Below, in pieces: positions 43,588 through 64,000 of a stretch of DNA of 64,000 bases (positions are counted from its first letter, which is position 1; each line of letters opens with the position of its first letter). The stretch spans positions 62,001-126,000 of the forward strand of contig SVAZ01000002.1 of NCBI GenBank assembly GCA_015059145.1, given 5' to 3'. The stretch comes from Erysipelotrichaceae bacterium. GTDB lineage: Bacteria > Bacillota_I > Bacilli_A > Acholeplasmatales > Anaeroplasmataceae. The translations under genes and the position numbers were made by a program. Below the pieces are notes generated by a model. That model ran no database searches. It was not told the origin of the DNA and worked only from the letters and a program-made list of their open reading frames with translations.

Positions 43588-44208
43588 TTGAAACGCATAC
43601 AACAAACCTATGAAAATACAATCATCATTCAGAAATCAGAATTCATCACTAGATTATTTAGAGTTGAATCTGTTAATGAGGTTGAAGAAATATTAGAAAA
43701 AATAAGAAAAAAGCATTACGATGCTACACATAATTGTTATGCATATATCATTGGAGATAATCAAGAAATCCAAAAGTGCTCTGATGATGGTGAACCTCAA
43801 AAAACTGCAGGTGCACCAATGATGGATGCATTAAAGAAAAATAATGTCACAAATATTCTTGCGATAGTAACAAGATATTTTGGTGGAACACTATTGGGGG
43901 CTGGCGGCTTAGTAAGAGCATATTCCTCTTCTGTTAGTGAATGCTTAAAGCTTTGTGATTTTTATGAGGTAAAAAAACAAATAAGCTTCTCACTTACTAC
44001 AAGCTATGGTGGCTACAACACAATCCTAAAGGTTATACCTTATATAACAATTAGCGAGGTATCCTTTACCACAGATGTTATAATTAATGCTACATGTGAT
44101 ATAGAAAAGTTTGAACAGCTAGATAGTGATTTATACAAATATAAAATATCTGCACAGGCTATAACTAATTTGGGAGAAATTTCTATTGAGGTTTCCTCAA
44201 ATACTTAA
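43588..44208 (+). CDS. YigZ/IMPACT (UPF0029) family protein
   Basis: 206 residues with a TTG start, chosen because GGTGAT lies 3-4 bases upstream and the promoter -10 lies between it and the longer frame's ATG. Family motifs: ATHNCYAYIIGD, SDDGEPQKTAGAP and RYFGGTLLGAGGLVRAYS, then a C-terminal ferredoxin-like DUF1949 domain. Role uncertain (translation-linked in relatives). Its end overlaps the convergent spoIIID end by 26 bases. Confidence 0.93.
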   Translation: MKRIQQTYENTIIIQKSEFITRLFRVESVNEVEEILEKIRKKHYDATHNCYAYIIGDNQEIQKCSDDGEPQKTAGAPMMDALKKNNVTNILAIVTRYFGGTLLGAGGLVRAYSSSVSECLKLCDFYEVKKQISFSLTTSYGGYNTILKVIPYITISEVSFTTDVIINATCDIEKFEQLDSDLYKYKISAQAITNLGEISIEVSSNT

Positions 44209-44434
44209 GCTTTGTAGCCTCTCCGCCACGTATATGGCGGATTTTTTTATTATAGTCAAGTAAATCCCTTACCTTATCATAAAGCTCAGGATCTATATCA
44301 ATTAATCGTGTAGTTAAATCATAGTGTACTGTAGATTTTGAATATCCAACAAGCTTAGCTACCTCCCTAACTGTTCTCTTACCGTCCAGCATTAGATTAG
44401 CTATTGTTATGGCTCTAGTATCTAAATAATCCAT
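44183..44434 (-). CDS. spoIIID: SpoIIID, mother-cell sporulation regulator
   Basis: Small DNA-binding protein that tunes sigma-E genes in the mother cell. 83 residues; the helix-turn-helix shows KRTVREVAKLVGYSKSTVHYDLTTRL (about 19-44), followed by DPELYDKVRDLLDYNKKIRHIRGGEAT, both highly typical of the family. AGGTGATTAGAT before the ATG. A sequence CATATAGT resembling a sigma-E -10 lies just upstream, without a clear -35. Confidence 0.95.
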   Translation of the reverse strand: MDYLDTRAITIANLMLDGKRTVREVAKLVGYSKSTVHYDLTTRLIDIDPELYDKVRDLLDYNKKIRHIRGGEATKLKYLRKPQ

Positions 44435-44472: not shown

Positions 44473-44497
44473 AAAAAGACTAAATTTAATTAGTCTT
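44473..44497 (-). terminator. Terminator of the pre-peptide gene
   Basis: 8-bp stem AAGACTAA / TTAGTCTT (44476-44483 with 44490-44497), 6-base loop, then TTTTTATTTTTTT; 11 bases beyond the peptide stop and before spoIIID. Confidence 0.85.
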
Positions 44498-44507
44498 AAA
44501 TAATTTT

Positions 44508-44756
44508 TTATAATGTATATTCTCTTAAAGAAAACATACCATAATTGTCTGGATCCTCTCCTGGGTCCACGGCTGCTAGATTAATTGTTTCATCTCTAAG
44601 CGAAAACATACCATAATTGTCTGGATCCTCTTCTGGATCTTTTGCGGCAAGCTTATGCTCAACCTTATCCTCCTCAATAGAATTTAATACACCTTCAAAT
44701 GATACTGCCATTAAAAATAATGAAAGTGATGTAAAAATAAATAATAGTTTTTTCAT
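44508..44756 (-). CDS. Exported 82-residue pre-peptide with two 24-residue repeats
   Basis: Not recognised as a known family. Residues 1-20 form a signal-like start (two lysines, then LLFIFTSLSLFLMAVSF). After an acidic linker come two repeats, residues 35-58 and 59-82, each reading LAA-x-DP-x-EDPDNYGMFSLR; a 12-residue core (EDPDNYGMFSLR) is identical in both. The layout (secretion signal, then repeated C-terminal peptide) resembles pro-pheromones with several copies of one signal, such as Phr/PapR/NprX types, or a small antimicrobial precursor. It lies 62 bases downstream of a helical-repeat regulator, the plcR-papR arrangement. Strong GGAGG site 7 bases before the ATG, own -10 and a Spo0A box upstream, own terminator downstream. 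Confidence 0.72.
   Translation of the reverse strand: MKKLLFIFTSLSLFLMAVSFEGVLNSIEEDKVEHKLAAKDPEEDPDNYGMFSLRDETINLAAVDPGEDPDNYGMFSLREYTL
44511..44654. repeat. Two 72-bp coding repeats in the pre-peptide gene
   Basis: Units 44583-44654 and 44511-44582. A 30-base block (44530-44559 and 44602-44631) is identical, including silent positions, so the duplication is recent or kept alike by gene conversion. Confidence 0.92.
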
Positions 44757-44779
44757 ATTTTCCTCCTCATTGCATCTTA

Positions 44780-44785
44780 ATTATA
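44780..44785 (-). promoter_or_regulatory. -10 element of the pre-peptide gene
   Basis: TATAAT preceded by TG, 24 bases before the start codon. No standard -35 (CAAAAT at that place), which fits a promoter that needs an activator. Confidence 0.55.
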
Positions 44786-44796
44786 CACATTTGATA

Positions 44797-44803
44797 TGTC
44801 GAA
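44797..44803. promoter_or_regulatory. Spo0A box upstream of the pre-peptide gene
   Basis: TGTCGAA, a perfect 7-base 0A-box core, 11 bases upstream of the -10 and next to the -35 place, where bound Spo0A would contact or block RNA polymerase. Confidence 0.6.
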
Positions 44804-44818
44804 TTTTGTTAATATTTA

Positions 44819-46027
44819 TTATGAAAATATTTTTTTACAAATTTTAATAAATGTTAGATTATGAAGCTTAGATAAAATTGCATCAGTTTGCTTCGATACA
44901 CGCACACCATTACATAAGTTGTTTATCTCTAATACTAATTGATAATACAATTCATAAAAATCTTTATTTTTATATTGCTTTTTTATGTCATCAAATAGCA
45001 AGTTGTACTCCTCTTTTTTATTAAGCTTATATAAAATTATCAAATATTCAATCTTCCACTCATCCTGTGTAATTACATCCTTATTTTCAATAATAAAATC
45101 ATAAGCCTCACAATACTTATCTAATAATATTAAGCATTCTATAATTCCTCTAAGAATCGATCTTTTATATTTAGTGTTATAAGAATCGTAGGCTAAATAT
45201 AACGAAAATAAAACATCATATGCATTATAATAGCTTCCTAATAATATTAAAGAATAAGCCATATTAATTTTTACGTAAATAGCTCTTTGAAAATTAGACA
45301 CCTCAACAAAACCATTGTAGGATTTCATGCCATATATAGTAGCATTCATATAATCTCCACAATAGTAATATGCATCAGATATTATCTTATTTAATAAAGG
45401 CTGTACAAATAAATATCTTACTGATAAAGCGGTAGCCTCTTCAATCTCAGCTTTATTAATAGTATGATTTAATATACTATCTCCATACATTTTTATTATT
45501 AAAAGAAACAATCTATATTCACCAACAAATAAATCCTTATAAGGTTTTGCAATTTTATAAAAATTCTTAAATAAACCTGCTACAGTAGGAATTGAGTATG
45601 GAGTAAATGATATATCTAAATAAAATTTTAAAGCTTTAAATGCTAATCCTGCCATAGAGGAAACATTGTTAACATTCTCATTCATAAGAGTAAGATTTTG
45701 CTCTATAAGAAGCATATCCTCTTCCTTCTTTTCAATTCTCATATATAGAATATCTTCTATAATCTTTGAAAAGCTTCTTGATAGCTGTTCTAGAATTTCA
45801 TCATCTGGTATAAATAGGTTATATTCTCTAGAAATAATTTCATAATAATAGTATTTATTTTTCTCTTTATTTTTTAAAAAGAATCGATATGAATTTGCAG
45901 ATATTCCTGTTTTTTTAAAAAAATCTTTTTTTAAAATACGATTTTCCTTTAAATAAATTTCTAAAAAATCATAAAAATTATCGATGTTAATTACATCCTT
46001 TAAATTAAAATAATACACAAAGTGCAT
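44819..46027 (-). CDS. Helical-repeat regulator, RNPP/Rgg-like
   Basis: 402 residues. Residues about 15-70 fit a divergent helix-turn-helix (FLEIYLKENRILKKDFFKKTGISANSYRFFLKN), and residues 75-400 are paired helices with TPR-like spacing (YYYCGDYMNATIYGMKSY; MAYSLILLGSYYNAYDVLFSL; CLILLDKYCEAYDFII), as in peptide-sensing RNPP regulators. GGTGAT lies 5 bases before the ATG. It directly precedes the pre-peptide gene, and a perfect Spo0A box lies about 75 bases upstream. The HTH is weak, so a Rap-like protein-binding role is an alternative. Confidence 0.7.
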   Translation of the reverse strand: MHFVYYFNLKDVINIDNFYDFLEIYLKENRILKKDFFKKTGISANSYRFFLKNKEKNKYYYYEIISREYNLFIPDDEILEQLSRSFSKIIEDILYMRIEKKEEDMLLIEQNLTLMNENVNNVSSMAGLAFKALKFYLDISFTPYSIPTVAGLFKNFYKIAKPYKDLFVGEYRLFLLIIKMYGDSILNHTINKAEIEEATALSVRYLFVQPLLNKIISDAYYYCGDYMNATIYGMKSYNGFVEVSNFQRAIYVKINMAYSLILLGSYYNAYDVLFSLYLAYDSYNTKYKRSILRGIIECLILLDKYCEAYDFIIENKDVITQDEWKIEYLIILYKLNKKEEYNLLFDDIKKQYKNKDFYELYYQLVLEINNLCNGVRVSKQTDAILSKLHNLTFIKICKKIFS

Positions 46028-46045
46028 AGATAATCACCATGTTTA

Positions 46046-46051
46046 ATTTTA
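46046..46051 (-). promoter_or_regulatory. -10-like element of the regulator gene
   Basis: TAAAAT, about 19 bases before the start codon, with no recognisable -35 (CTTTTA). An activator such as Spo0A could supply this. Confidence 0.4.
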
Positions 46052-46102
46052 CTACAAAACAAAAAAATTAAAAGAAAAAAGTGGTAGAATTTGGAAAAAC
46101 TG

Positions 46103-46109
46103 TTCGACA
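46103..46109. promoter_or_regulatory. Spo0A box upstream of the regulator gene
   Basis: TTCGACA followed by AAAA, i.e. TTTTGTCGAA on the minus strand, a perfect 0A-box core in an AT-rich intergenic strip. Confidence 0.6.
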
Positions 46110-46110
46110 A

Positions 46111-46142
46111 AAAGAAAAATAAGAAGCTCAGCTTCTTATTTT
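46111..46142 (-). terminator. Terminator of the spoIIQ gene
   Basis: 12-bp stem (46116-46127 with 46131-46142), 3-base loop, then T-rich tract; overlaps the spoIIQ stop. Confidence 0.85.
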
Positions 46143-46825
46143 GTCTCTACGATTTCATCGATTTCTTTTCCAAAAATATTCATTGGATTTAAATATTTAC
46201 CATTATTCATCACTTCAAGATGCACATGGACTCCAGCCTCAGGATCATTTATAGATTCAGATGCTGTTGCGATTACATCACCTTGTGAAACCACAGCTCC
46301 AACAGCTACATTAAGATTCTTTAGTGAAGAATAAACACTAGTAATATTGTTAGCATGCTTGATTGTAATAGTTGCACCACATAATTCATCTTCTTCGATT
46401 GATTGAATTACACCATCATAAATAGCAAGAACCTCGAAACTTGAATTGTCATTCTTCTTATAGCTTAGCCCTGTAGATGTAACCATTTCAATGCCATTAT
46501 TGATTACAGCAGCCTCTAATTCCTCATCAGATAAAGAATCATCAAAATAAGTTCTAGCTATTACGTAGTCTCCCGTAAGAGGTAAAATGAATTTTTCAAC
46601 AACCTCTACTGGTGTCTCATCTACTGGTTCATTATCAGTATTAGCCTGTGAATCATCTTGACTAGGTGTATCGCCTGTTGGAGGAGTTTCATCTACTGGA
46701 TCTTCTGTATTATTTAATGCTAATGATGCAATACCGATTACAGCCGCAAATACAAAAACAACCACACCGATAAATATTAACAATTCCTTCTTCTCAATGA
46801 AAAATCTTTTAATTTTTTCTTTCAT
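46136..46825 (-). CDS. spoIIQ: SpoIIQ-type M23 (LytM-domain) membrane protein
   Basis: Forespore-side half of the SpoIIQ-SpoIIIAH channel that links forespore and mother cell. 229 residues: cytoplasmic start, one membrane helix (about 16-36), an Asp/Pro/Thr-rich stalk, then a LytM domain (about 100-225) ending HVHLEVMNNGKYLNPMNI. The first zinc His of active M23 enzymes is replaced (NNGIEMV), as in B. subtilis SpoIIQ, so it is probably not an active peptidase. Start set at MKEKIKRF, with GAGGTG upstream. Next to DUF1146/YwzB and near SpoIIID, as in Bacillus. Confidence 0.85.
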   Translation of the reverse strand: MKEKIKRFFIEKKELLIFIGVVVFVFAAVIGIASLALNNTEDPVDETPPTGDTPSQDDSQANTDNEPVDETPVEVVEKFILPLTGDYVIARTYFDDSLSDEELEAAVINNGIEMVTSTGLSYKKNDNSSFEVLAIYDGVIQSIEEDELCGATITIKHANNITSVYSSLKNLNVAVGAVVSQGDVIATASESINDPEAGVHVHLEVMNNGKYLNPMNIFGKEIDEIVETK

Positions 46826-46842
46826 ATCTTTCACCTCAATTT

Positions 46843-46872
46843 TATTATTTACAAAAATTAGGTGAATATACA
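46843..46872 (-). promoter_or_regulatory. Possible sigma-F promoter of spoIIQ
   Basis: TGTATA (46867-46872), 14-base spacer, GTAAATAATA (46843-46852), which resembles the sigma-F pattern (GTwTA, then GGnrAnAnTw) with one mismatch. Tentative. Confidence 0.35.
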
Positions 46873-46881
46873 TTATAATAA

Positions 46882-47100
46882 TTAAAATTGAAGATTATTA
46901 ACAAGACCCATTATTGCAGCAGTTGCGAGTGATGCAAATACAAGTGACAAAATCAACTGTGTAGCTCTTATTTGCCATGTTGAACCCTGCTTGAATAATG
47001 CTTCAAGCCTTGTTGCTAATATTATTAAAAAACATAAACAAAAGAATATACAAAATACAATCGTATAAATTAATGAATAAATATCAATTGAAAGTATCAT
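46882..47100 (-). CDS. DUF1146 (YwzB-type) membrane protein
   Basis: 72 residues with two membrane helices (about 8-30 and 47-66) joined by RLEALFKQGSTWQIRATQLILS, the conserved loop of the DUF1146/YwzB family. AAGGAGATAAT before the ATG. In Bacillus ywzB lies upstream of murAA, spoIID and spoIIQ; murAA and spoIID are missing here. Function unknown. Confidence 0.85.
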   Translation of the reverse strand: MILSIDIYSLIYTIVFCIFFCLCFLIILATRLEALFKQGSTWQIRATQLILSLVFASLATAAIMGLVNNLQF

Positions 47101-48405: not shown

Positions 48406-49956
48406 TTATTTTATAAACTTTTTAACCTCAAAGCATTCAATATCTTTTTCCTTTAATCCATCGAATCTAACATTCTTAATATTAACCTTATTCACATAGT
48501 TAAATATTAGTCCTTTGCCAGACATTGGATCTAACCCATCCATCATAGCAGGAACACCTGGCTTTGGATTATTAGAATACGCAAAAGATACATTATTAAC
48601 TTCAATTGACTCTATTGGTTGTTCTGGTAATCCATAAAAGGTTCCAGCAGCAACATTAACATTTGTACATTCAATATCTCTAAATACAAACTTTCCTAAA
48701 TAAGGCGTTCTATCATCTACAGGAAGTTTTTCCTTAGAATATACATATTCTGTATGACCATCTGGATCACAGAAATAAAACATATTAATAACAAGAGGAG
48801 TTAAAACATCTGTCATTTTAATATTTTCAAATACAATTCCATCAATAACAGCATCTTTACCTCTACCTCTACGAGTCTTAATTCTTAAGCCTCTATCAGT
48901 TTCATTAAATAAACACTGAGATACTCGAATATCCTTAATACCTCCAGACATTTCACTACCCAAAACGATAGCACCATGTCCAAAATTCATAGAACAATTT
49001 CTAATATTAAATCCTTCAGAAGGCTTTTTGTGCTTTCTACCCATATAAATCTTTCCTGATTTAATTGCGATACAATCATCACCAACTGAGAAATAGACAC
49101 CGATAATATCAACGTTCTTACATGATTCAGGATCACATCCATCAGTATTAGGAGAATTCTTAGGATTAATTAGCTTTAAATCGATAAATCTTAAATTCTC
49201 TGAAAAATAAGGATGTAAATTCCATGAAGGTGTATTAGTAAATGTTAAGCCTTGAACACAAATATTCTTACAATTATTTAAAAATAATCCTCTAGGTCTC
49301 CATGCAATACGTCTAGTGCGTACATCAACCCACCAATCAGAATTATCAGCGTTACCATTAATAACACCTGGTCCTATAATGTTTACATTTTCAACATTAA
49401 TACCAGTAATTATGCTAGCAAAGCAATCAAGTGGATTACCTTCCCAAGAGCCAAGATTATATTCATCAGTTTCATCTGATGTATAAGTCACACCTGGTAA
49501 AACTGGATAATTATTTCTATCAATATCTCCTATTAAAGTTGCATCCTTATCAAACTCAATAGTTATATTACTTTTAAGGAATAGAGGTCCAGTATAATAA
49601 TTTCCTTTTGGAAAATATACTCTACCATTATCTGGACAAGCTAAAATACACGCTTGAATATATTGAGTGTCTAAACTTTGTCCATCTCCCTTGGCACCAA
49701 ACTTTTTAACGTTTAAAGTTACATATTCATAAGATGTAATAAGCTTTCTGGTAACAGATTCGAAACCCTTAATAAGCTTTAGTTCATATTGAGTATTAGG
49801 TTCTAAATTGTATATAGAAAAAACATTTGTGTTTACAGACTCTTTATATAAAACATCATCAACATATACATTATATAAATCTGTGTTATAAATATCATTA
49901 TTAATAATTTCTATAGTGGCACTTCTAGAAGTCTTATAGATTACATTAAAATCCAT
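48406..49956 (-). CDS. GH28 polygalacturonase-type glycoside hydrolase, cytoplasmic
   Basis: Hydrolyses galacturonic-acid chains (polygalacturonase or rhamnogalacturonase family). 516 residues: an FN3-like N-domain (about 1-80), then the right-handed beta-helix from VKKFGAKGDGQSLDTQYIQ. Catalytic set in order: NTDG (first Asp), GDDCIAIKSG (Asp pair), FGHGAIVLGSE (His) and RIKTRRGRG. No signal peptide, so it acts inside the cell on imported oligomers. Last gene of the operon; GGAGG before the ATG. Confidence 0.94.
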   Translation of the reverse strand: MDFNVIYKTSRSATIEIINNDIYNTDLYNVYVDDVLYKESVNTNVFSIYNLEPNTQYELKLIKGFESVTRKLITSYEYVTLNVKKFGAKGDGQSLDTQYIQACILACPDNGRVYFPKGNYYTGPLFLKSNITIEFDKDATLIGDIDRNNYPVLPGVTYTSDETDEYNLGSWEGNPLDCFASIITGINVENVNIIGPGVINGNADNSDWWVDVRTRRIAWRPRGLFLNNCKNICVQGLTFTNTPSWNLHPYFSENLRFIDLKLINPKNSPNTDGCDPESCKNVDIIGVYFSVGDDCIAIKSGKIYMGRKHKKPSEGFNIRNCSMNFGHGAIVLGSEMSGGIKDIRVSQCLFNETDRGLRIKTRRGRGKDAVIDGIVFENIKMTDVLTPLVINMFYFCDPDGHTEYVYSKEKLPVDDRTPYLGKFVFRDIECTNVNVAAGTFYGLPEQPIESIEVNNVSFAYSNNPKPGVPAMMDGLDPMSGKGLIFNYVNKVNIKNVRFDGLKEKDIECFEVKKFIK

Positions 49957-56226: not shown

Positions 56227-57084
56227 TTATTCTTTAACTCCACCAACGTTAATACCAGCTGCAAAGTACTTTTGAAGCATTGGATAAATAACGATGATTG
56301 GAATGATAGAACATACTATAAACGCATATTGTAATGCGTATGTAGAGAATGAATATCCTCCACCATCTTCGATACTCTTTAAAATAGAAGCAACATTAAC
56401 CTTAATAAATACCTGTAATGGTTGATCATCTGGACCTAATAGCATTTGCGCCCAAATATAACCATTCCAACGAGATACTGCGTAGAACATTGCAACTGTT
56501 ACAATAGATGATTTTGACATAGGTATATATACCTTAGTTAAAATTTGGAACTCAGTAGCACCATCAATTGTAGCAGCTTCTTCTATTTCTGTAGGAATAC
56601 CACTAAAATAATTTCTTAATAAAATAATATTAAATGGACTAAATCCTAATGCAATAATGAACATATAACGATTTGTTACACCAAATCTTATAAAGTTTTG
56701 TAATGTAGGAATCATACCTGCATTAAACCACATTGTAAATACAAGCATGAAGTTAAATCCACGTCCAAATAATAATCTAGTTTTTGATAAAGCATATGCA
56801 CCCGTAATAGCTACAAGCATAGACACTAATGTACCATACATTGTAATAAAGAATGAGTTACAATATGCTAACCAGAAACCTTCATTTTCAAATACATATA
56901 AATATGTACCAAAATCAAAACCAACAGGCCATAAATATACCTTACCAGCATCTACAGCAGCTTGACTTGATAATGAATTTGATAAAATATATATAAATGG
57001 ATATAAACAGCATAATGCAAAAACAGTTAATAATGAGTATGATAATATCTTAAATATAACTTCTGATCTATCTAATCTTTTCAT
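56227..57084 (-). CDS. Sugar ABC transporter permease, LplC/YtcP type
   Basis: 285 residues, six membrane helices, with the EAA loop EEAATIDGATEFQILTKVYIP near residue 180 that docks the ATPase. Ends GINVGGVKE, typical of the LplC branch. 18-base gap from the LplB-type gene. Confidence 0.94.
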   Translation of the reverse strand: MKRLDRSEVIFKILSYSLLTVFALCCLYPFIYILSNSLSSQAAVDAGKVYLWPVGFDFGTYLYVFENEGFWLAYCNSFFITMYGTLVSMLVAITGAYALSKTRLLFGRGFNFMLVFTMWFNAGMIPTLQNFIRFGVTNRYMFIIALGFSPFNIILLRNYFSGIPTEIEEAATIDGATEFQILTKVYIPMSKSSIVTVAMFYAVSRWNGYIWAQMLLGPDDQPLQVFIKVNVASILKSIEDGGGYSFSTYALQYAFIVCSIIPIIVIYPMLQKYFAAGINVGGVKE

Positions 57085-57102
57085 CTTTCATTTCCTCCAA
57101 AA

Positions 57103-58140
57103 TTAGAATAATGATGTAGATGATACACGTCTACTAATAGCATTAGCACCTAATACAAGGCACATAGCAATTACTGCATTAAATAGGTCAGCAACGATAC
57201 CAATTTGTTGTACTACTACTTCACCTGTCGCATTAATATCTCTACCACTCATACGATAAACTAGTGTAGAAATAACGTCTCCTGTTTCCCAAGCAGACTT
57301 CTTATCACCAATCAATAATAATACCTTTTCATATCCAACATTTAAAATTGAACCAATACGGTTAATTAACATAATTGTTAATGTTGGAGCCATACCAGGT
57401 AATGTTACATATCTAATTTGTTGCAGTTTAGAAGCTCCATCTATTCTAGCAGCCTCATAGCTAGTTGGGGAAATAGCAACAATTGCAGCAAAATAAACAA
57501 TTGAGCCATAACCAGCACCTTCCCAAATACCAGAAATTTGATAAATAGGTCTAAAGAACTTAGGTTGAACTAATAAAGAAGTAGTAACTTCTTGCCCAGC
57601 ATCACCATTAGTAAGATTAAATAGTGAACAAAGTTGATATAAAACTCCACCAGCTGAACTTTGTGTTTCTCCTTCACACCATAAAGTAATTAATGCTGTA
57701 ACTACTACAGTTGATACGAAGTGAGGTAAATAACAAGCAACTTGTAGGAAGCTTCTATAACCTAAGCACTTAATTTCACTAAATAATAACGCAATTAAAA
57801 TTGGAATTGGGAAACCAATTAATAAACCATACATACTATTTACGAAAGTATTTCTAAATGCTCTCCAGAATGTAGGTGCAGTGTTACCTACAAATATATT
57901 TTCAAGCCAATAAAAACCACACCATTGACTATTATATAATTCTGAAGTATCTTCACCCCATTTAAATCCTGTTAAAATTCCATATGCAGGGAAATATTTA
58001 AACAGAATAATGAATAATAACATCGGAATAAGAAGAACATATAAACGCCAATCCTTACCAAGAGTTATCAATACTCTTTTCCATTTTGTACGTTCAACTT
58101 CGTTTACAACGTTAATATCTGATTCGACATACTTTTGCAT
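57103..58140 (-). CDS. Sugar ABC transporter permease, LplB/UgpA type
   Basis: About 345 residues with six membrane helices. EAA loop EAARIDGASKLQQIRYVTLPG near residue 225, and FKYFPAYGILTGFKW after the first helix, typical of LplB. Between helices is an extra outside segment (about 150-190). Start set at MQKYVES, where AAGGATGG lies upstream. Confidence 0.93.
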   Translation of the reverse strand: MQKYVESDINVVNEVERTKWKRVLITLGKDWRLYVLLIPMLLFIILFKYFPAYGILTGFKWGEDTSELYNSQWCGFYWLENIFVGNTAPTFWRAFRNTFVNSMYGLLIGFPIPILIALLFSEIKCLGYRSFLQVACYLPHFVSTVVVTALITLWCEGETQSSAGGVLYQLCSLFNLTNGDAGQEVTTSLLVQPKFFRPIYQISGIWEGAGYGSIVYFAAIVAISPTSYEAARIDGASKLQQIRYVTLPGMAPTLTIMLINRIGSILNVGYEKVLLLIGDKKSAWETGDVISTLVYRMSGRDINATGEVVVQQIGIVADLFNAVIAMCLVLGANAISRRVSSTSLF

Positions 58141-58164
58141 TTTGCAATACACCATCCTTTAATA

Positions 58165-59786: not shown

Positions 59787-59824
59787 AAACATAATCAATT
59801 ATTTGTTTGCGGAGGAAGGAATAT

Positions 59825-60760
59825 ATGAAATATATAATAGATTCAAAAGAATCAATTAATGATACCTTAGCCAAATGTAAACCGGGAGATTCCATATATT
59901 TAAAAAATGGTATTTACAACGAGAAGGTTGAGGTTCGTATTGACAATCTAACTATAATAGGTGAGAGCCAAAATAATACTATTATAGCTAATATGGATTA
60001 CTATCATAAAATAATGCCAGATCATAATGAATGTAATACGTTTAGAACATATACAGTTTATGTAGGAAGCAATAATGTTAACATTTGTAATTTAACAATT
60101 AAAAATAAATCTACTCCATCAAGTATATATGGACAAGCAGTTGCATTACATGTACAGGGTGATAATTTCAAATGTGAAAACGCCTCTATAGTAAGTGCTC
60201 AAGATACATTATTCACCGGACCACTTCCTGACGATTTATGTTTAAGACACCAAGGGTTTTTACCTAATGACTTTATTACAGGATTACCATCTAGACAAAA
60301 ATATATTAACTGCAATATAAGTGGCGATGTTGATTTCATATTTGGTGGTGCAACTGCTTTATTTGAAAAATGTAAAATCACTGCACTTCGAAATGAAAAT
60401 ATCAGTTCAAATAAAACATTTGGCTATATTGCAGCACCATCACATTCCAAGGATACTCCATATGGTTACCTATTCTATAATTGTGATATAACATCCGAAA
60501 ATGAAAATAATAGAATTTTTTATGCAAGACCTTGGAGAGATTATGGATGTGCAGCGTTCATTGAATGCAATGTCACAAATGACATTAATCCTTCAGGCTT
60601 TAACAAATGGAATAATACTACTCGTGATAAAACTGCTAGATTTTTTGAATATACAGAAAATACAGATCTATCTAAAAGAGAGCCATGGGTTCATCTATTA
60701 TCAAAGGATGAAGCAAATCAATATGTAAATGACTTTAAAAAATATTTAGAAAATAAATAG
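59825..60760 (+). CDS. CE8 pectinesterase, cytoplasmic
   Basis: De-esterifies methyl-galacturonan. 311 residues, right-handed beta-helix. Catalytic residues in order: Gln in GQAVALHV, Asp in SAQDTLF, Asp in GDVDFIFGG and Arg in RPWRDYG. No signal peptide, so it would act on imported methylated oligogalacturonides before GH28. Start set at MKYIIDSKE with GGAGGAAGG upstream. Divergent from the pectin operon. Confidence 0.94.
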   Translation: MKYIIDSKESINDTLAKCKPGDSIYLKNGIYNEKVEVRIDNLTIIGESQNNTIIANMDYYHKIMPDHNECNTFRTYTVYVGSNNVNICNLTIKNKSTPSSIYGQAVALHVQGDNFKCENASIVSAQDTLFTGPLPDDLCLRHQGFLPNDFITGLPSRQKYINCNISGDVDFIFGGATALFEKCKITALRNENISSNKTFGYIAAPSHSKDTPYGYLFYNCDITSENENNRIFYARPWRDYGCAAFIECNVTNDINPSGFNKWNNTTRDKTARFFEYTENTDLSKREPWVHLLSKDEANQYVNDFKKYLENK

Positions 60761-60771
60761 CATAAATACAT

Positions 60772-60833
60772 TTCGACATTTTTCGACAATATCGTTATGA
60801 TATCTTATAATTCGACAATCAACATTTGTCGAA
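60772..60833. promoter_or_regulatory. Cluster of four Spo0A boxes upstream of spo0A
   Basis: Perfect 0A cores: TTCGACA at 60772-60778, 60782-60788 and 60811-60817, and TGTCGAA at 60827-60833. The first two are direct repeats 10 bp apart, the helical spacing of a Spo0A dimer. The last two are inverted, and their arms (60809-60817 with 60827-60835, followed by ATTTTATTTTT) could also form the pectinesterase terminator. Autoregulation of spo0A is likely. Confidence 0.75.
60783..60811 (+). promoter_or_regulatory. Distal spo0A promoter inside the 0A boxes
   Basis: -35 TCGACA (60783-60788, the core of box 2), 17-base spacer, -10 TATAAT (60806-60811, touching box 3). The overlap of 0A boxes with both elements suggests direct control by Spo0A. 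Confidence 0.55.
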
Positions 60834-60932: not shown

Positions 60933-61718
60933 ATGGCTAAAATTATTATTGCTGATGACAACAAAGAACTACTATGCATGATTTCAGAATTTCTTAAAAC
61001 TCAACTTGAAATCGAGGTAGTAAAAACATTCACAGGTGGAAAGGATTTATTAAATCACTTAGAAACTGAATCATGTGACATTTTATTATTAGACGTATTT
61101 ATGCCGGAGGTTGACGGTGTTAACGTATTAACAGAGATAAATACTAAAAATAAATATCACAGACCTAAAAAAATCGTTATGCTGACTGCATTCAATTCAG
61201 AATCAATAATTTCAAAATCATCTGAATTAGGAGCCGATTATTTTATAGTTAAGCCAATCGATTTAACAAGCCTTTCAAAAACGATCCAATCATTACTAAA
61301 TGATAGCACTCAAAAGGGTACAACTTATAACCTAAAGAATTCAGCTCCTGTTGGTAATGAGGTTTCATTAGATCATGAGATAACCGAAATACTACATGAA
61401 ATTGGAGTTCCAGCTCATATTAAAGGATATATGTACTTAAGAGAATCTATTACTATGGTTTATAATAATGTAGATATCCTAGGGGGTATAACTAAAATAT
61501 TATATCCTACAGTTGCTAAAAAGTTTAAAACTACATCTTCACGTGTAGAGCGTGCTATCCGTCATTCTATAGAGGTTGCATGGAATAGAGGTAATGTAGA
61601 TGCTATATCTCAAATATTTGCATATACAATCAGCTATAACAAAAGTAAACCTACTAATTCAGAATTTATTGCAATGATTGCTGATAAATTAAGATTAGCT
61701 CATAAGATTGCGTGCTAA
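60933..61718 (+). CDS. spo0A: Spo0A, sporulation master regulator
   Basis: Response regulator that commits cells to sporulation. 261 residues. Receiver domain with the acidic pair (ADD, 8-9), phospho-Asp in [13 protein letters not shown], switch Thr in LTAF and Lys in VKP. The C-terminal Spo0A domain has the hallmark [19 protein letters not shown] and the recognition region [20 protein letters not shown]. Intact in every key residue. GGAGG before the ATG. Confidence 0.98.
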
Positions 61719-62967: not shown

Positions 62968-64000
62968 TTATTCGTTACTGCTTTTAGTTGTAGTCTTTCT
63001 AGTTGTAGGTGAGCTAGTAGACTTTCTTGTAGAAGGCGTAGACTTCTTAGCCGAAGTACTAGTACTCTTACTTCCGGTAGTAGTCTTTTTTGATGTTGTA
63101 GAAGTACTTTTCTTAGCTGCTGCTCTTTTCTCTTGAGCAGCCTTTTTTGCAGCATCCTTTAGAGCTTGTGTATAAGCGGCAACATCAACCTTTACAGGGC
63201 CTTTTTTCTTCGTTGGAGTAGGAACATTTTCAACAACCTCCTCAACGCTATCAATTTGTGGCACTTCATCATCTAATTCTTCTGTTTCATCTAAAGAAGC
63301 CTCATTATATTGGACATATTCACCTGTTAATTTATCTTCAACGTACTGAACATATTCCACTTGTTGAGCTTTATAATTCACTTCTTCAGTGACATCTTCA
63401 TATGCCGGTTCTTCAATAACCTCTTCTGCTATCTCTTCAACTGTTGGTTCTTCGATTACCCCTTCTGCTATCTCTTCAACTGTTGGTTCTTCGATTACCT
63501 CTTCTGCTATCTCTTCAACTGTTGGCTCTTCGATTACCTCTTCAGTTATCTCTTCAACTGTTGGCTCTTCGATTACCTCTTCTGCTATCTCTTCAACTGT
63601 TGGTTCTTCAATAACTTCATAATTTGAAGCATCATCTATTACATTACCAAATTCATCAACATAAACTATTTCTTCAACAACTTCTTCGTTTGAAATGTTT
63701 TCAATAACATTTCCATCCTCATCAACATAAACTACTTCTTCAATAACATCTTCTTCAACAATAGAAGGGTCTTTTACTACCTTTTCGATAATCTCTTCTG
63801 TAGGCTCTTCGTTTTCTGAAGAAATAGTTTCTTTAACAATAGCTTCTTCTTTTGTAATTGGTTCCTCTACTTCATTTTTTCTAATTGTAACAACACCAGA
63901 TTTTTTAGGTTTATTATCCCTTTCTGGATCATTTGTAAGAGATTCTATTTTTACGTTATTTAAAACTTTCTTATATTCCTTGTTTTTGCTAAAATCTAAT
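62968..64000 (-). CDS. Acidic-repeat protein with basic Ser/Thr/Lys tail (N-terminus beyond window)
   Basis: The frame stays open from the window edge to 62968, giving 343 C-terminal residues; the N-terminus is missing. In order: a lysine-rich start (SKNKEYKKVLN), two copies of a DE-rich unit (EEVVYVDEDGNVIE and EEIVYVDEFGNVID), five tandem copies of EEPTVEEIAEEVI, a Tyr/Gln stretch (VEYVQYVEDKLTGEYVQY), then about 75 residues of Lys/Ala then Ser/Thr/Lys/Arg (KKAAQEKRAAAKKSTSTTSKK...). Probably disordered; the tail resembles DNA- or nucleoid-binding tails. Function not recognised. A short 62952-63155 frame here is a shadow. Confidence 0.75.
   Translation of the reverse strand, partial: LDFSKNKEYKKVLNNVKIESLTNDPERDNKPKKSGVVTIRKNEVEEPITKEEAIVKETISSENEEPTEEIIEKVVKDPSIVEEDVIEEVVYVDEDGNVIENISNEEVVEEIVYVDEFGNVIDDASNYEVIEEPTVEEIAEEVIEEPTVEEITEEVIEEPTVEEIAEEVIEEPTVEEIAEGVIEEPTVEEIAEEVIEEPAYEDVTEEVNYKAQQVEYVQYVEDKLTGEYVQYNEASLDETEELDDEVPQIDSVEEVVENVPTPTKKKGPVKVDVAAYTQALKDAAKKAAQEKRAAAKKSTSTTSKKTTTGSKSTSTSAKKSTPSTRKSTSSPTTRKTTTKSSNE
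63407..63615. repeat. Five tandem 39-bp coding repeats
   Basis: Full units begin at 63407, 63446, 63485, 63524 and 63563, with a partial sixth. They encode EEPTVEEIAEEVI on the minus strand; changes are few (GGG for GAG in one unit, ACT for GCA in another). Long plus-strand open frames here are artefacts of the repeat. Confidence 0.93.

Follow-up and report, generated by a model that had tools for sequence, protein, structure and literature searches.

Peptide quorum sensing of the RRNPP type has been described chiefly in Bacillales, Lactobacillales, and some clostridia, and Tenericutes/Mycoplasmatota go unmentioned in the RRNPP surveys consulted. NprR and its pheromone NprX are coupled to sporulation, and this one receptor acts on the phosphorelay as well as on DNA (PMC4970707). 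In the Rap-phi3T and Rap-phi105 systems, tandem pheromones of one propeptide yield several active peptides (PMC11343458). In the supposedly non-sporulating Anaeroplasmataceae, most genomes carry sporulation genes, including spo0A, and sporulation is an open question in this family (PMC10868615).

The locus studied here lies in a window of 64,000 nucleotides (contig SVAZ01000002.1, positions 62,001–126,000) from the metagenome-assembled genome (G000; 1.43 Mb in 34 contigs) of an Anaeroplasmataceae gut bacterium related to Anaeroplasma. Between spoIIQ and spoIIID, and on one strand (minus), a gene for a 402-aa regulator (44819–46027) is followed by a gene for an 82-aa exported pre-peptide, a putative pro-pheromone (44508–44756). 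Both open reading frames are present where the first-pass annotation had placed them, and it had named the flanking genes correctly: spoIIQ (46136–46873, minus strand) encodes a SpoIIQ-like M23 protein (NCBIfam E = 3e-38, below the curated cut-off), and spoIIID (44183–44434, minus strand) is recognized by Pfam (E = 2e-30). The same annotation took the position between these genes as a link to sporulation, which holds as neighborhood and not as an operon. A strong terminator (46116–46142, minus strand; fold z = -3.7) parts spoIIQ from the regulator, ruling out an operon of the regulator with spoIIQ that would run on to spoIIID. Downstream, a terminator hairpin (44476–44497, minus strand; fold z-score -3.6) is situated 3' of the peptide gene and 5' of spoIIID, and a similar hairpin follows the peptide gene of the relative G026. 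Hence, the regulator and peptide genes form a separate unit.

Elsewhere in the window, polygalacturonase-like and pectinesterase-like proteins (48406–49956 and 59807–60760) are encoded near sugar ABC transporter genes (56227–58155), and pectin use is likely, judging by these enzymes, which were named by reading only. At its end (62968–63999), the window cuts off an acidic, repetitive protein of which it contains the C-terminal part; this has EEPTVEEIAEEVI-type units in tandem and a tail rich in Lys, Ala, Ser, and Thr.

The comparison set comprised 27 genomes of the genus (G000–G026), the relatives bearing the names "uncultured Anaeroplasma sp." and "Candidatus Avacholeplasma faecigallinarum". 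Homologues of the regulator were identified in two of the 26 other genomes, G026 (46% identity, 404 aa) and G002 (39%, 406 aa), and in all three carriers the gene is located between spoIIQ and spoIIID. No further homologue was found in the other searched genomes of the genus, the family (55), or the order (160), and a profile search of contigs with the three-sequence alignment matched these two relatives only. The genes spo0A and spoIIQ co-occur in exactly the same five genomes of the genus; the regulator is present in three of these and in none of the 22 genomes that lack spo0A. In the other two spo0A-bearing genomes, G013 and G021, spoIIQ directly adjoins spoIIID with nothing between. An unrooted tree of Spo0A, SpoIIQ, and YigZ sets the three carriers apart from G013 and G021 (bootstrap 94), and thus a single gain, or a single loss, explains the pattern. 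A phage or mobile origin of the pair found no support.

Several of the genomes outside the five with spo0A and spoIIQ are more than 95% complete, and sporulation seems to have been lost across much of the genus. The five spo0A-bearing genomes still encode penicillin-binding transpeptidases, and upstream of spoIIQ all five have kept a small membrane protein of 72 aa (46882–47100 in the window).

The regulator falls within the size range of RRNPP receptors (250–500 aa) and has no sequence match in profile searches against Pfam, NCBIfam, PHROG, and PDB. TPR family profiles of Pfam and NCBIfam do not hit it at E-values up to 10, and the TPR match used by RRNPP_detector (PMC10075063) is therefore absent. 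Searches by tblastn against plasmids and phages returned no match, and hhalign detected no relation to AimR of phi3T; homology to a known RRNPP receptor subfamily was thus not found among PDB profiles, phages, plasmids, or in the AimR alignment. On direct inspection, without profile support, the segment KKDFFKKTGISANSYRFFLKNKE resembles a classical HTH. Among the three regulators, identity is 63–76% in the HTH and 34–39% in the TPR part, the pattern expected for a conserved DNA-binding part joined to a diverging ligand-binding part.

AlphaFold models of the window protein and its G026 homologue, built with three sequences as input, are of moderate confidence (pLDDT 75 and 77, pTM 0.58 and 0.63). 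The regulator model has an N-terminal four-helix HTH unit (about aa 15–69; helices 15–28, 33–40, 44–52, and 54–69), beyond which some 17 helices form a TPR-like superhelix, and the two models agree on this arrangement. When compared with PDB by Foldseek, the bacterial regulators among the best matches are NprR, RapF, RapI, RapJ, Rap-pLS20, and Rap-phi3T (TM 0.54/0.60 for 5dbk_B and 0.54/0.59 for 4i1a_B). The best E-values of all belong to eukaryotic LGN TPR proteins, and other TPR proteins match too, so the similarity indicates a fold class and is partly generic to TPR proteins. In a viral structure library, the matches were mostly TPR-like proteins of giant viruses, and none had an E-value below 0.001. 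With moderate confidence, therefore, the regulator is predicted to combine an HTH with a TPR-like superhelix resembling Rap and NprR, as is expected of an RRNPP receptor. This supports the first-pass annotation in its reading of a receptor gene followed by a peptide gene, as in the PlcR and NprR systems; the gene order points the same way.

The pre-peptide gene has a GAGGAGG ribosome-binding site and a homologue in G026. A putative signal sequence (aa 1–19; 44700–44756, minus strand) consists of MKK and a hydrophobic stretch with hydropathy up to 2.5, with possible cleavage at AVS|F. The duplicated repeat noted earlier is borne out by the open reading frame: two copies (aa 37–60, 44577–44648, and aa 61–82, 44511–44576, both minus strand) lie in register with a unit of 24 codons, and each contains the identical 12-aa core EDPDNYGMFSLR (44595–44630 and 44523–44558). 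Sixteen of the first 18 repeat residues are identical between the copies despite five synonymous codon differences, which indicates that the amino-acid sequence of the repeat has been selected for since the duplication.

In G026, a 54-aa exported peptide with the C-terminus QDPDDYDLL is encoded between the regulator and spoIIID. The acidic core DPD(N/D)Y is common to this peptide and the window pre-peptide, and an alignment of their post-signal parts was beaten by just 26 of 20,000 shuffles. A longer degenerate pattern of the motif, searched in the 27 genomes of the genus, retrieved only these two peptide genes; other DPD(D/N)Y matches in G000 and G002 include no small exported peptide, and a protein search with the pre-peptide in the family gave weak matches only (E = 0.15–0.3), all in longer open frames. 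Thus, the motif was never seen in a small exported peptide apart from the regulator. A small (10–100 aa) propeptide with a signal-like N-terminus adjoins the receptor in G000 and G026 and is absent from this position in G002. In G002, the locus (L003:1259–1485) holds the regulator with a 0A box and no adjoining peptide gene, and no peptide ORF with the motif was found elsewhere in that 78%-complete genome; the peptide may have been lost, may be encoded elsewhere, or the strain may be a receiver only. Conservation of the pair is accordingly partial: order and motif are retained in G000 and G026, whereas G026 has one motif copy, the duplication not being kept, and G002 has no adjoining peptide. 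The processed parts of the peptides are strongly acidic (-2 to -4) and hydrophilic, and the core differs from known pheromones, in line with the earlier reading.

The perfect TGTCGAA sequences reported upstream of each gene are confirmed. One, TTTTGTCGAACA (46103–46109, minus strand), is located 76 bp before the regulator ATG; the other (44797–44803; TGTCGAA on the plus strand, TTCGACA on the peptide strand) is located 41 bp before the peptide ATG. The window has nine perfect boxes against 2.34 expected, a number reached in none of 100 shuffles: three are inside long open frames, four in the spo0A promoter, and two before this pair. By chance, a box would occur in the upstream gaps with a frequency of about 0.4% (108 bp) and 0.2% (62 bp).

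The validity of TGTCGAA as a 0A box in this lineage follows from phylogenetic footprinting of the spo0A gene itself (60933–61718, plus strand; TIGR02875 E = 4e-97, above the curated cut-off). Its promoter contains four perfect TGTCGAA/TTCGACA boxes within 62 bp (60772–60833), and their position is kept in relatives. The array was compared in four species (G000, G026, G002, and G021; the G013 promoter was left out): relative to the start codon, all four boxes recur in G026 within 3 bp of their positions in G000, three recur in G002, and two in G021. The window box also agrees with the published 0A-box core (PMC3485338). The conserved four-box array is a strong sign that spo0A is autoregulated in Anaeroplasmataceae.

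A scoring matrix built from the spo0A promoter boxes gives the peptide box 14.8, level with the spo0A sites, and the regulator box only 9.1; the G002 regulator box scores 10.6 and the G026 peptide box 11.6. In random 110-bp stretches of the window, scores of 12, 10, and 9 are attained in 0.5, 1.6, and 2.4% of draws. Judged from sequence, the evidence for a candidate 0A box is thus good for the peptide gene and moderate for the regulator gene. In G026, no 0A box precedes the regulator, and the peptide box is situated 182 bp upstream, inside the 3' end of the regulator gene. Weak -35 elements had been proposed for both window genes, which is partly right: the peptide promoter has TCGACA, a fair -35-like hexamer, with TAAGAT 17 nt downstream, and a TATAAT is also found nearby. 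The peptide 0A box overlaps this hexamer and could partly be a -35 element; such a position is compatible with either activation or repression by Spo0A. No clear operator palindrome shared by the promoters was found. The link of the pair to Spo0A suggested by the first-pass annotation is supported by the candidate boxes before both genes and by the restriction of the regulator gene to spo0A-bearing genomes.

On these grounds, we regard the two genes as a real candidate receptor/peptide pair in an unexpected lineage, conserved and maintained by selection, with well-supported candidate 0A boxes. We consider it probable that the pair is a self-contained RRNPP-like receptor/pheromone module within the Spo0A regulon. 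For the broader proposal, that it represents a previously undescribed receptor/pheromone family, unrecognizable by sequence, through which sporulation becomes subject to population sensing, the signal and the receptor both lying directly in the Spo0A regulon, the considerations are evenly balanced. Under the module reading, Spo0A~P, or its relief, would set the transcription of both genes as cells enter stationary phase or sporulation. After export by Sec, the pre-peptide would be cut down to one or two acidic peptides based on DPDNYGMFSLR, the G026 form being the C-terminal QDPDDYDLL; candidate core peptides for the receptor are DPDNYGMF, EDPDNYGMFSLR, and DPDNYGMFSLREYTL, and QDPDDYDLL for the G026 protein. 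The trimmed peptides would re-enter through Opp and bind the concave groove of the regulator superhelix. An Opp-type importer, as required of RRNPP systems, is encoded in G000 (an OppA-type lipoprotein with an adjoining permease), and PF00496 matches are present in all five spo0A-bearing genomes. Peptide binding would then switch DNA binding by the regulator. In the simplest case, the regulator would feed back on its own promoters or act on other developmental genes, and commitment to sporulation would come to depend on neighbors. With two cores, each propeptide would deliver twice as much signal. We infer these steps of export, processing, import, and binding.

The regulator might instead act chiefly by protein contact, as NprR and Rap do, its peptide-free form restraining the Spo0A phosphorylation pathway until the returning peptide frees it; in that case Spo0A, by controlling the pair, would feed back on itself. 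Rap and NprR are indeed the closest bacterial folds, NprR acts on both the phosphorelay and DNA (PMC4970707), and the regulator gene is confined to genomes with spo0A, but Rap proteins have no HTH, while in the present regulators no part is more conserved than the HTH (63–76%), and we regard this mode of action as rather unlikely. Nor do we give much credence to accidental adjacency, in which the regulator would be an orphan HTH protein and the peptide an unrelated small exported protein with a structural or spore-envelope role. It would accommodate the small number of peptide examples (two), the solitary regulator of G002, and the want of a sequence family for either protein; it does not account for a DPD(N/D)Y motif and an adjacency kept while the regulators diverged to 46%, for 0A boxes before both genes, or for a predicted regulator structure of the peptide-binding class.

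The alternative offered earlier, sibling killing (cannibalism) by a peptide that Spo0A induces and that has a regulator of its own, starts from a small exported peptide under probable Spo0A control. The acidic, hydrophilic character of the processed parts speaks against it, as does the retention of the regulator without a peptide in G002. Between spoIIQ and spoIIID, none of the three genomes encodes the exporter, modification enzyme, or membrane immunity protein that would mark an Skf/Sdp-like toxin, and we judge sibling killing to be highly improbable.

If the broader proposal is true, population sensing for sporulation would extend to the wall-reduced, mostly asporogenous Anaeroplasmataceae, and the direct candidate 0A boxes of the pair make density control of sporulation testable in an uncultured group. 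Since the receptor is invisible to TPR profiles, RRNPP-like systems may be undercounted. Measured by the published RRNPP traits (PMC10075063), the pair has the receptor size, the adjacency, the small exported peptide, and the predicted fold, and lacks the TPR profile. It appears to function like an RRNPP system and is not filed here as a proven member, because the TPR-profile test failed and no sequence homology to a known subfamily was found. It may be a further degenerate-TPR branch, since such clades are recognized inside RRNPP (PMC12700828).

With AimR-AimP and AloR, members of the degenerate-TPR, nine-repeat clan, the locus shares an HTH followed by about nine TPR-like repeats that have degenerated beyond recognition by TPR profiles (PMC12700828), whereas the pair here is chromosomal, tied to Spo0A, without a phage match, and negative in the alignment with phi3T AimR. 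Rap-Phr systems, including Rap-phi3T/Phr-phi3T, have a similar superhelix and duplicated pheromone cores in the propeptide (PMC11343458); in contrast to the regulator, Rap lacks an HTH, and no sequence similarity between the two was found. PlcR-PapR has the same regulator-then-peptide order and an HTH, but PlcR has five TPRs. In B. cereus, plcR is repressed by Spo0A, whereas the window pair may be activated or repressed. NprR-NprX of the Bacillus cereus group differs in having no sequence similarity in the PDB search and a different peptide, and the present pair is set apart by its two pheromone copies, the perfect 0A boxes before both genes, and its Anaeroplasmataceae lineage. On the other hand, in both systems a receptor of about 400 aa joins an HTH to a long TPR-like part, the propeptide gene lies directly downstream, and there is a connection with sporulation. 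Crystal structures of NprR rank among the best fold matches of the regulator, whose model has an HTH and a predicted architecture of roughly nine repeats, as in NprR and AimR.
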